DNA of 64,000 nt from Rhodobiaceae bacterium (lineage in GTDB: Bacteria > Pseudomonadota > Alphaproteobacteria > Parvibaculales > Parvibaculaceae), in contig CP030277.1 of assembly GCA_003330885.1 (NCBI GenBank), positions 124,001 to 188,000 of the forward strand, read 5' to 3'. This document shows, one piece after another, positions 7,398-14,986 of this stretch. The position numbers were made by a program, and so were the translations under genes. Position 1 is the first letter of the stretch, and each line of letters opens with the position of its first letter. The notes under the pieces are model-generated. The model saw only the letters and a list, made by a program, of their open reading frames with translations, was not told the origin of the DNA and searched no databases.

Positions 7398-7496
7398 TCT
7401 TTCCTCCGTCAAATAGCATTGAAATCCCGAGCGTTGGTCTTGCTGCTATCTTGAAAGCGGATAGGATCGCACGGCTCAACAGGGGAGGGGATAGGT

Positions 7497-8642
7497 TTGT
7501 CTGATTTTATTAATACACCTTTGGTCGGGGTTCCTGACAGCAGAACCCGCATGGCGACTCCGGCTCTGGTAATTGACCTTCCCGCCTTCGAAGCCAACGT
7601 CACTGCGATGGCGGCTCATTGTGCAAAACATGGGTTGAACTTGCGTCCACACGCCAAGACCCACAAATCTGCCGAAATTGCCCGCCGTCAGATTGCGGCC
7701 GGGGCATTGGGCGTCTGCTGCGCCAAGCTGGGGGAGGCGGAAGCGCTGGGCGCTGCGGGCATTGACGGCATTCTCCTGACCTCGCCAGTTGTCCTACCCT
7801 TCGCAATTGAGCGACTGATGGCGCTGAATGGGAAGCTCGACGACCTCATGGTTGCTGTCGACAACCCGGAAAATGCAACGGCGCTCGCGACTGCCGCGGA
7901 AGCTTCAGGCAAACCCCTACAGGTCTTGATGGATCTGGACGTCGGCCTTCACCGAACGGGCATTGCGCCGGGAGACGACGCTCATGCGCTCGCCCGACAG
8001 ATGGAAGAAAGCCCCCATCTCCATTTTAAAGGTCTCCAAGCCTATGCCGGTCACCTCATGCATATTGAAGACTTCGCCGCCCGCCGTGAAAAGTCTCTCG
8101 CCGTGATGAACATGCTGGCCGACATGCGGGATCGATTGGACAAAGACGGCATCACCTGCGCAATCCTTTCAGGCGGGGGAACGGGAACGTTCGACATTGA
8201 TGTTGAAGCGAATGTGTTGACGGAACTTCAGGGCGGTTCCTATGTCTTCATGGACAAGCAGTACAATGATGTGGATGGCCCGGATGGGCGTTCACTTGGC
8301 GATGCCTTTCAAACATCGCTTCATGTGCAGATGAGTGTCGTCTCCAACAACACACCTAAGCTTGCGACGACCGATGCAGGCTTCAAAAGCTTCTCAACCG
8401 ATGCGGAGCTCCCAGTGCTGAGTGACGGTGCGCCTGAGGATGCGAAGTATTTTTTCTTTGGCGATGAGCAGGGCGGCATCATGCTCTCCAGCGCTAATGA
8501 GAAGCTGGCACTCGGCACAACGCTCACTGCGGTCACCCCGCACTGTGATCCCACCGTCAATCTCTATGACGCCTATCATGTTGTTGAGGGCGATAAGCTC
8601 ATAGCCATCTGGCCCATCGAGGCCCGCGGGCGTTCTGCATGA
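7497..8642 (+). CDS. DSD1-family PLP-dependent enzyme (D-threonine aldolase / D-serine dehydratase-like)
   Basis: 381 residues. RPHAKTHK near residue 53 holds the PLP Schiff-base lysine of the alanine-racemase-like barrel, and PHCDPTVN near the C-terminus supplies the His and Cys that bind the catalytic metal in D-serine dehydratases and D-threonine or hydroxyaspartate aldolases. Probable action is on a D-beta-hydroxy amino acid; which one cannot be read from sequence. The start is TTG at 7497 behind GGGAGGGG; the next ATG (7551) has no ribosome site and would trim the conserved N-terminus. The stop overlaps the next ATG (ATGA), so it is translationally coupled to the HAD hydrolase. Confidence 0.85.
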   Translation: MSDFINTPLVGVPDSRTRMATPALVIDLPAFEANVTAMAAHCAKHGLNLRPHAKTHKSAEIARRQIAAGALGVCCAKLGEAEALGAAGIDGILLTSPVVLPFAIERLMALNGKLDDLMVAVDNPENATALATAAEASGKPLQVLMDLDVGLHRTGIAPGDDAHALARQMEESPHLHFKGLQAYAGHLMHIEDFAARREKSLAVMNMLADMRDRLDKDGITCAILSGGGTGTFDIDVEANVLTELQGGSYVFMDKQYNDVDGPDGRSLGDAFQTSLHVQMSVVSNNTPKLATTDAGFKSFSTDAELPVLSDGAPEDAKYFFFGDEQGGIMLSSANEKLALGTTLTAVTPHCDPTVNLYDAYHVVEGDKLIAIWPIEARGRSA

Positions 8643-12530: not shown

Positions 12531-13889
12531 ATGGCTGAGGCCGGAACCACAGAAAATCAGTCGGCGGACGGGGCTCCAAATGACCTGGAAGCCTTCTGGC
12601 TTCCCTTTACACCCAATCGGCATTTTAAGCGGGATCCGCGCATCGTTTCGCGCGCAAAGGACATGCACTATTTCAAACCCGACGGTACAGCTGTACTGGA
12701 CGGGACCGCCGGGCTCTGGTGCTCCAATGCGGGCCATTGTCGAGAGCCGATTGTTGAAGCGATTCAGGCGCAGGCGGCTGAGTTGGATTTTGCTCCGACC
12801 TTTCAATTCTCACACCCCAAAACATTTGAGGTGGCCAGCCGATTGACGGCAATGGCGCCGGACGGACTCGACTATGCGTTCTTCTGCAACTCGGGATCGG
12901 AAGCAGCGGACTCTGCGCTCAAAATGGCGCTCGCCTACCACCGCCTAAACGGTGAGGCATCGCGAACCCGTTTCATCGGTCGTGCGCGCGGCTATCACGG
13001 CACAGGCTTTGGGGGTATTTCCGTTGGCGGGATTTCGCCAAACCGAAAATTCTACGGCTCCCTACTGCCGGGTGTGGATCATCTTCCCCATACCTACAAT
13101 CGGGAGCGACAGGCTTTCAGCAAAGGCGAACCGGAATGGGGTGCCCATCTGGCCGACGAGCTTGAGAAGATTGTCGAGCTCCATGATGCCTCAACTGTCG
13201 CGGCAGTGATCGTTGAGCCTATGGCTGGATCCACCGGTGTGCTGCCGCCCCCGAAAGGATACCTCAAACGTTTGCGGGAGATTTGTACCCGCCACGGGAT
13301 TGTCCTGATCTTTGATGAGGTGATTACAGCTTTCGGTCGCTTGGGCGCTGCCACAGCGGCGGAACGCTTCGGTGTAACGCCGGACCTCATGACCTTTGCC
13401 AAAGGGGTCACAGGCGGCACAGTGCCCATGGGCGGTGTGCTGGTGTCGAAAGAGATCTATGACAGTTTCCAGGGCGAAGGCGGACCCGATCACGCCATCG
13501 ATCTCTTCCACGGCTACACCTATTCCGGCCATCCCCTGGCTATGGCGGCAGCGCTGGCGACGTTGGATCTGTACAGGGACGAAGGTCTGTTTGAGCAGGC
13601 CGCTGCGAACGAAACTGTGATGGCCGACGCGGCCCATGCACTCAAGGACCATCCATTGATGCTCGACATCAGAACCATCGGTCTAGTCGCCGCATTTGAT
13701 TTGGCGTCCATTGAAGGCCTGCCTGGAAAACGTGGTTACGATGCCATGTGCCGGGCCTTTCATGACGAAGGCATGATGATCCGTGTGACAGCTGACACCA
13801 TTGCCTTCTCACCGCCGCTTATGGCAACGGAAGACCACATTATGGAAATGTTTGAGAAGTTCAGGCGCGTGTTGGATGCGTGTTCCTAA
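12531..13889 (+). CDS. class III aminotransferase, beta-alanine/omega-amino acid:pyruvate type
   Basis: 452 residues. Landmarks are the substrate loop GLWCSNAGHCREPIVEAI, CNSGSEAADSALKMA, the phosphate-binding GYHGTGFGG, FDEVITAFGR with the PLP-binding Asp, and TFAKGVTGG with the PLP lysine. The sequence most resembles omega-amino acid (beta-alanine):pyruvate transaminases. It would convert beta-alanine or a related omega-amine to a semialdehyde, with alanine formed from pyruvate. Start ATG at 12531 behind GAGGG. Transcribed divergently from the XRE-cupin regulator, its likely controller. Confidence 0.9.
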   Translation: MAEAGTTENQSADGAPNDLEAFWLPFTPNRHFKRDPRIVSRAKDMHYFKPDGTAVLDGTAGLWCSNAGHCREPIVEAIQAQAAELDFAPTFQFSHPKTFEVASRLTAMAPDGLDYAFFCNSGSEAADSALKMALAYHRLNGEASRTRFIGRARGYHGTGFGGISVGGISPNRKFYGSLLPGVDHLPHTYNRERQAFSKGEPEWGAHLADELEKIVELHDASTVAAVIVEPMAGSTGVLPPPKGYLKRLREICTRHGIVLIFDEVITAFGRLGAATAAERFGVTPDLMTFAKGVTGGTVPMGGVLVSKEIYDSFQGEGGPDHAIDLFHGYTYSGHPLAMAAALATLDLYRDEGLFEQAAANETVMADAAHALKDHPLMLDIRTIGLVAAFDLASIEGLPGKRGYDAMCRAFHDEGMMIRVTADTIAFSPPLMATEDHIMEMFEKFRRVLDACS

Positions 13890-14004
13890 GGCCTGAAGGG
13901 GAAGTTTGGTGTCATTTTGTCGCAATGCAATATTTCGGTGCGGATTGAGGCAAAACACTCTTGTAAATCAGTCTACCCATCTTATCTCTTTTGCATGAGA
14001 CGGC

Positions 14005-14092
14005 GATCGGCCAACAAAGCAGCACCCCCCCTCCCGCTGCAGGCCTGATCCCACCCAGCCCCTGGCGCTCCCCTCGCCGGGGGCTTTCTTTT
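14005..14092 (+). ncRNA. candidate small RNA with two hairpins bearing C-rich, anti-Shine-Dalgarno-like loops
   Basis: Two hairpins lie in the gap between the transaminase and a convergent SDR. The first (14005-14050) stacks GATCGGCC with GGCC-T-GATC and then GCAGC with GCTGC around a 12-nt loop ACCCCCCCTCCC; an AACAAA bulge is on the 5' side. The second (14057-14085) is an 11-bp stem with one G-U pair, loop CTCCCCT, followed by TTCTTTT, a Rho-independent terminator. This layout recalls the CCUCCUCCC-loop (cuckoo) RNAs of Alphaproteobacteria, but the loop sequence is not identical. The exact 5' end is unknown; a weak promoter is possible near 13961-13989 (TTGTAA, 17 bp, TATCTC). Confidence 0.6.
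14057..14092 (+). terminator. Rho-independent terminator
   Basis: Stem AGCCCCTGGCG/CGCCGGGGGCT (one G-U pair), 7-nt loop, then a T-rich tail on the plus strand. It is 167 bp beyond the transaminase stop, so it probably ends the candidate small RNA and can also serve the transaminase transcript. Confidence 0.88.
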
Positions 14093-14131: not shown

Positions 14132-14986
14132 TCAGTCTTCCTTTTTAAGACCCAACCGTCCGGCCATCATGCCGTCGACAGTGCGTTTGGGAAGCAGGCC
14201 CGGAAGCGTCCAATTCATCAAGCGCCCCGGCACAACCGCATAGCGTGTTCTCGGGTTTGCTGTTGTCAGCGCTTTCCAAACCGCGCGACCAAGCTTCTCA
14301 GGCGGGAAGCCCTTTTTGCCGTTTGCGATCATGTATTCCTTGATCCGATCGAGGGCTGGCGCGAAGGGACTGTTCTGATATTGCGTGACATCGACGTCTT
14401 CCGCCTTGTCCCAGATCTTTGTGGCAACAGCGCCGGGGCCCACGATCACTACATCAATGCCAAAGAGCATGAGCTCGCGACGGAGACTTTCGCTGACACC
14501 CTCCAGGCCATGTTTGGATGCAGCATAGGCGCCGAGGAAAGGCGCCCCGTTTTTCCCGGCAACAGAACTGATCATCACAATGCGTCCAGGCTTACCTGTA
14601 AGGTCTTTGTCGATACCAAGCAGAGGCGCAAAAGCCTGTGTCACAATTACCTGGCCGGTAATGTTCACTTCGAGCTGATTTCGAAATTCATCAATCGGCT
14701 GGTTGAGAACAGGTCCAGGTGCCGCGATGCCTGCATTGTTGACCAGCCCAAAAAGGGTCGCGCCATTCAACGCGTCACGGACCGTTCGTGCGCCTTGCGC
14801 CACCGCGGCTTCATCTGTGACGTCAAAGAGGAGCGGCGTGAACAGGTCACCAAATTCCGATTTAAGGCGCTCTCCATCCTCGGCCTTGCGGACGCTGCCA
14901 AAAACATGAACGCCATTTTTGGTGAGAATTTTCGTGATACCCCAGCCAATGCCGGTGGAAACACCTGTGACCACAACTGATTTCAT
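14132..14986 (-). CDS. short-chain dehydrogenase/reductase
   Basis: 284 residues. Classical SDR motifs are all present: TGVSTGIG (cofactor loop, residues about 7-14), NNAG, catalytic Ser in VMISSVAG and YAASK with catalytic Tyr and Lys. The C-terminal extension (ending near GRLGLKKED) and the LRREL segment suggest a lipid, steroid or retinol-type substrate, but this is loose. The ATG at 14986 follows GGAGG; a reading from 15019 is unlikely. Directly upstream lies a fragment of the GNAT gene that is intact at 17735-18181, so this SDR was probably once the neighbour downstream of that gene. Confidence 0.88.
   Translation of the reverse strand: MKSVVVTGVSTGIGWGITKILTKNGVHVFGSVRKAEDGERLKSEFGDLFTPLLFDVTDEAAVAQGARTVRDALNGATLFGLVNNAGIAAPGPVLNQPIDEFRNQLEVNITGQVIVTQAFAPLLGIDKDLTGKPGRIVMISSVAGKNGAPFLGAYAASKHGLEGVSESLRRELMLFGIDVVIVGPGAVATKIWDKAEDVDVTQYQNSPFAPALDRIKEYMIANGKKGFPPEKLGRAVWKALTTANPRTRYAVVPGRLMNWTLPGLLPKRTVDGMMAGRLGLKKED

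Follow-up and report, generated by a model that had tools for sequence, protein, structure and literature searches.

A conserved candidate small RNA with C-rich loops downstream of aptA that resembles the cuckoo RNAs without matching them

Introduction

Among the described small RNAs (sRNAs) closest to the locus reported here, the ar14 RNAs carry redundant anti-Shine-Dalgarno (anti-SD) loops, and NfeR1 of Sinorhizobium meliloti silences ntrB via SD pairing (PMC10746234). The cuckoo RNAs CcsR1-4 of Rhodobacter sphaeroides are C-rich loop sRNAs of Alphaproteobacteria as well, and an RpoHI/RpoHII promoter drives their cotranscription with ccaF1, a DUF1127 gene (PMC10253847). In Rhizobiales, the loops stay and the stems vary; in cuckoo RNAs, stem divergence is rapid enough to weaken covariance models (PMC3927594), which has made the evolution of the loop motif hard to follow in these RNAs. 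C-rich loops are also found in sX13 of Xanthomonas, where they target G-rich motifs close to start codons, as shown by reporters, and do so independently of Hfq (PMC3771888). A further anti-SD signature in alphaproteobacterial sRNAs is that of the alphaR8 RNAs (SisA-D) of Caulobacter, and CrfA of the same organism pairs with UUUCCUCCCU sRNAs through a G/A-rich loop (PMC12559287).

The RNA predicted here lies downstream of aptA in a 64-kb stretch of DNA, hereafter referred to as the window, i.e., the whole stretch that was analyzed. It shares with ar14 and NfeR1 the C-rich, SD-complementary loops, the freely varying stems, and the terminator as the last hairpin. Unlike ar14, which is formed by three hairpins each carrying CCUCCUCCC, it consists of one compound hairpin and a terminator. 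In contrast to the cuckoo/CcsR RNAs, it is single-copy, follows aptA, and belongs to a genome in which PF06568 revealed no DUF1127 gene, although this domain is short and a diverged copy may have been overlooked. Stable stems with apical 4C/5C loops are common to sX13 and the window RNA, whereas sX13 has three stems, is gammaproteobacterial, and is not homologous to the window RNA as far as seen. The alphaR8 RNAs have an anti-SD signature too, but their motif is a single-stranded UUUCCUCCCU stretch without an apical loop.

Locus and predicted structure

The stop of an aminotransferase gene (13889, + strand) and the stop of an SDR gene (14132, - strand) enclose a gap of exactly 242 bp. A reading based on the sequence only (the sequence-only reading) had placed two strong hairpins and a T run in this gap, with the loops ACCCCCCCTCCC and CTCCCCT. 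Both loops are read in the sequence, and folding bore out the hairpins, the T run being a broken one. As for the span that had been given (14005-14092), the 3' end stands and the start does not, hairpin 1 beginning slightly upstream, at 14002. The features of the locus are as follows:

12531..13889, + strand: omega-aminotransferase AptA gene (NF052567, NCBIfam 683.6 bits), upstream and constant neighbor of the RNA
13959..13989, + strand: promoter-like block with CTTGTAA (13960-13966) and CTTATCT (13981-13987)
13994..14092, + strand: predicted sRNA of ~99 nt, the 5' end placed from the promoter-like block and the 3' end from the terminator
14002-14052, + strand: hairpin 1, with outer stem 14002-14011/14042-14052 and inner stem 14019-14023/14036-14040
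14024-14035, + strand: loop 1, ACCCCCCCTCCC, candidate mRNA-pairing site, C-rich in orthologs of the same genus (g1) and in members from genera g3, g4, and g5
14057-14085, + strand: hairpin 2, 11 pairs, intrinsic terminator stem
14068-14074, + strand: loop 2, CTCCCCT, second candidate pairing site
14085-14092, + strand: T-rich tail, TTTCTTTT, a broken T run
14132..14986, - strand: SDR-family oxidoreductase gene, convergent, adjoining the RNA in g1 only

Hairpins 1 and 2 reached folding energies of -19.7 and -22.0 kcal/mol, respectively (z = -3.5 versus shuffled copies in both cases), and the complete RNA folded with -42.1 kcal/mol (z = -2.9), a value equalled by 2 of 200 shuffles. The terminator reads on the + strand only, because on the opposite strand the hairpins are not followed by a T run. 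A 17-codon peptide starting at ATG 13995 would be another product of the locus, and its frame is open in the window genome (G000); single-base length changes shift the frame in G002 and G004, and the start is missing in G005 and G006, which makes a coding role hardly credible.

The combination of two C-rich-loop hairpins and a T run was scanned for in the 64-kb window and 20 sampled stretches, which amount to 464 kb of the 3.86-Mb genome. On both strands, it occurs at two places, i.e., the window RNA and a cuckoo-like RNA (G000:C1:2180468-2180541), the pattern having been composed when the window RNA was already known and the sample deliberately including the stretch that holds the cuckoo-like RNA. 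Six Markov-shuffled copies of the genome sample yielded no match to this pattern. C-rich terminator loops are rare in the 464 kb (5 of 338 candidate terminators), and a search for sequence homologs elsewhere in the same genome returned terminator-like matches only.

Conservation within the genus and promoter-like block

All seven genomes of genus g1 contain the RNA, with alpha proteobacterium Mf 1.05b.01 among the carriers; the copy in G001 is cut by the contig end and shows two uncompensated stem changes right at this end. In six g1 genomes, the mean pairwise column identity was 0.81-1.0 for stems and loops, compared to 0.73 at the 3' end of the aminotransferase gene and to 0.54 and 0.17 in the gaps preceding and following the RNA, respectively. 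Loop 1 varies in length (seven C or fewer) and is always C-rich. Regarding the stems, 22 of 26 pairs are invariant, one shows a double change (G-C to U-A), and two show wobble pairs, with 1 of 155 cells broken. For hairpin 1, this comprises the inner pair that changes from G-C to U-A and two outer pairs with wobble, none being broken in the six genomes. Covariation within the genus is thus weak, with too little variation to judge.

Ahead of the RNA, CTTG[TA]AAAT...TATCT is kept in the seven g1 genomes, and the bases in between vary in the fashion of a promoter. In g2, in g3, and in some g5 genomes, similar blocks of CTTG-NN and TATC precede the RNA. The promoter-like block before the RNA has no match to the sigma-70 consensus, and CTTG[TA]AA is no more than suggestive of RpoH-dependent transcription.

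Conservation across the order

With the aminotransferase gene as an anchor to locate the RNA in other genera, we found a C-rich-loop RNA downstream of an AptA-type aminotransferase gene in five of five genera of the order (g1-g5; g5 in part). Carriers in g3 include Tepidicaulis marinus (identical sequence), in which the RNA would measure ~127 nt, and the loops in this genus are CCCCCCTC, ATTCCCTCCCCCTCGAT, and CATCTCCCCCC. In g4, the loops are TTTTCCCCCTCTGATC and CCCCCC, and in g2 the terminator loop is CTTCCCTCTC or CATCCCCCTC, with a less clear first domain. Two types occur in g5: one combines CTCCCCTCCCCCTCA with CTCCCCC, and the other has CCTCCTCCCCCCTCCTCTCAAA, which contains the classic CCUCCUCCC (G016), and a terminator without C-rich loop. 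The stems are strongly divergent between genera yet still pairing; in a manual alignment of the terminator stems that starts at their base, standard pairs that differ on both sides occupy 4 of 10 aligned positions. The sequence-only reading had proposed to check relatives for conserved loops with compensating stem changes; between genera, the loops remain C-rich and the changes in the stems are compensated.

The RNA is absent from the place downstream of aptA in 13 of the 18 g5 genomes read, G027 being counted among the five that have it. Furthermore, at 73 more distant aptA-like loci the next 420 nt contain no C-rich-loop terminator, and model R1, searched at 1e-5 with stricter filters against 385 genomes from the class, gave no match outside the genus; many of its weak family matches are plain terminators (e.g., L047-L057). 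In g5 genomes without the RNA (L168, L169, L170, and L172), the region downstream of the aminotransferase gene contains 11-bp repeats CTGTCACAAAACTGTCATAAAACTGTCAC, which are PhoB-box-like, followed by TTATCCCCGG repeats.

Given that the RNA is always located directly downstream of the aminotransferase gene, and that g1 has no other terminator in between and hairpin 2 is a good one, the RNA could be merely the terminator and 3' UTR of this gene, with the extra hairpin being incidental. In g2, however, direct reading of the sequence shows a perfect terminator immediately after the aminotransferase gene and clearly ahead of the RNA; the RNA of this genus is therefore not simply the terminator of the gene and, by this arrangement, should have its own promoter. 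The promoter-like block kept between gene and hairpins and the C-richness of the loops across genera, which is not needed for termination, also speak against this explanation, and we consider it unlikely. 3'-UTR-derived sRNAs are known in general, and the position right behind the aminotransferase gene would suit an sRNA that is cut from the aminotransferase mRNA and acts on other mRNAs via the same loops; against the promoter-like block and the g2 terminator, such an origin is decidedly unlikely.

Relation to known RNA families

At the gathering threshold, Rfam gave no match in the whole window. The covariance search that the earlier reading had called for produced a weak, full-length match of the RNA to ar14 (RF02344) with 21.2 bits, far below the gathering score of 58.8; orthologs in other genera reached up to 42.1 bits, which is below gathering too. 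The RNA folds into two domains instead of the three hairpins of ar14, and hairpin 1 of the ar14 model falls on the promoter-like block with broken pairs. Its loops are ACCCCCCCUCCC and CUCCCCU, and not CCUCCUCCC in each loop as in ar14 and cuckoo RNAs, and the association with DUF1127 that applies to cuckoo/CcsR RNAs and the CIN1 locus was not observed. For sX13 (RF02232), the score was 15.2 bits against a gathering score of 50. Matches to NsiR1, FsrA, and suhB were rejected as they were far under the cut-off, with a resemblance limited to the terminator. The order's best ar14 score, 54.4 bits, belongs to G001:C1:11392-11520 (L174), which has no terminator T run and might match by chance or through a coding sequence.

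A canonical cuckoo-like RNA is located in the same genome at G000:C1:2180419-2180544 (L030), 2.04 Mb from the window RNA. With 33.4 bits, it matches ar14 better than the window RNA does, below gathering as well. Its loops, ACCUCCUCCC and ACUCCUCCUCCCCCC, are of the CCUCCUCCC type; it has a TTGACA-like promoter, is kept in the genus, and has similar RNAs in g4 and g5. Both RNAs of the genome comprise two C-rich-loop hairpins, the second being the terminator, whereas they differ in stems, promoter, neighbors, and loops.

A true cuckoo/ar14 member that diverged from a duplicate of the canonical gene, today located at G000:C1:2180419, would be compatible with the mechanism of an anti-SD sRNA. The full-length weak ar14 match of 21.2 bits, the CCUCCUCCC in the loop of the g5 ortholog in G016, and the two-hairpin plan common to both RNAs are in line with such a descent. 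The score far under gathering, the position of model hairpin 1 on the promoter-like block, the missing CCUCCUCCC in the window RNA, and the lack of any evident stem sequence in common with the canonical RNA are not, and we regard it as somewhat unlikely. The description of the RNA as resembling cuckoo RNAs without matching them is supported: it has the anatomy through which those RNAs act, while Rfam score, loop motif, and DUF1127 context disagree. Of the two options that had been offered, a divergent member or a different family, membership of the cuckoo/ar14 family is not supported by the tests run, and the genome has a separate canonical cuckoo-like RNA. The window RNA represents a new family within a kind already described, the anti-SD-type sRNAs.

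Loop complementarity and candidate targets

At least seven contiguous bases complementary to loop 1 were present in 1.8% of 441 called start regions versus 0.24% of coding windows, and for loop 2 the values were 1.6% and 0.17%, respectively; the called gene starts had been chosen partly by SD. SD complementarity thus exceeds the coding background 7-9 fold, and a permuted C-rich control equalled it. The match of the loops to start regions is therefore expected of any C-rich string, because the permuted control loop matched as well. The claim that the loops could pair with G-rich SD sites fits the excess over coding windows, which the permuted control shares. Duplex energies between loops and start regions were barely better than shuffled and gave no useful separation. 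In three genomes, GGGAGGGG within 10 bases of RTG was found 82 times compared to 57 for the reversed motif, a modest excess.

The target search was performed on a 400-kb sample of stretches of the genome, so that the candidates are at least those listed here. Candidate targets retain an 8-base loop 1 match in three or four congeners. One predicted target is a gene of the DSD1/alanine-racemase fold (window 7497), with GGGAGGGG before the start kept in four congeners; its start region AGGGGAGGGGATAGGT (window 7475-7497) is complementary to both loops. Other predicted targets, with GGGAGGGG before the start in three of three genomes compared, encode a GH1-like protein (G000:C1:92957), an exporter of the MMPL type (2305216), a porin-like protein of the outer membrane (2314402), and a small membrane protein (2040448), these names being a reading of the sequences. 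Hfq is encoded in the genome.

Proposed mechanism and implications

We propose, with a probability of roughly two in three, that the window RNA acts in trans as an sRNA silencing mRNAs via its C-rich loops on SD regions. Presence in seven congeners, the promoter-like block, the position in five genera, the re-made stems, and the SD complementarity support the initial claim of an sRNA with anti-SD-like loops. On these grounds, we consider it very likely that the locus specifies a conserved C-rich-loop sRNA, and among the mechanisms considered, silencing by pairing with SD regions has the best support. An RNA of ~99 nt would be made from its own promoter and end at its own terminator. The hairpin loops ACCCCCCCUCCC and CUCCCCU would pair with the G-rich SD regions GGGAGGGG and AGGGGAG of several mRNAs, which would hinder ribosome binding and lower translation, and mRNA decay would probably accompany repression. 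The sequence itself shows the structure and its conservation, the C-richness of the loops, the promoter-like block, and the complementarity to start regions, whereas we infer that the window RNA is transcribed and stable, that it uses Hfq, and that it has targets which it represses. Alternatively, the partner of the C-rich loops could be a protein or a second RNA with a G-rich loop, as in a sponge or decoy, instead of SD sites. CrfA implies that RNA-to-RNA control of such motifs exists in the class; no partner was identified, and SD matches are the simplest reading, which renders this alternative highly improbable.

More tentatively, and with somewhat less than an even chance, the RNA may represent an undescribed order-wide family that arose next to aptA, either separately from the cuckoo RNAs or as an early offshoot of them. 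Its loops would have shifted between CCUCCUCCC, CUCCCCUCCCCC, and ACCCCCCCUCCC by genus, providing lineages with a second anti-SD RNA for a different SD subset than the canonical one. If so, one genome would hold two anti-SD-type RNAs of different loop alphabets, CCUCCUCCC and CCCCCCCUCCC, and their coexistence would be a natural test of target choice by short generic loops. A fixed genomic place combined with changing stems and loops would make a clean series for watching the loop motif evolve.

Other C-rich RNAs

A third possible small RNA is located at G000:C1:1685277-1685363 (L022; also L009 1440-1540) and is kept in g1 and g3. It shows a promoter-like block, a single-stranded AACCCCTCG, and a terminator loop CGCCCCCT. 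A conserved three-hairpin RNA with C-rich loops of the CAUCCCUCCCCUC/CUUCCCCUC type occurs in g5 at the loci L182, L185, L191, L193, and L196, where it apparently follows a coding gene.
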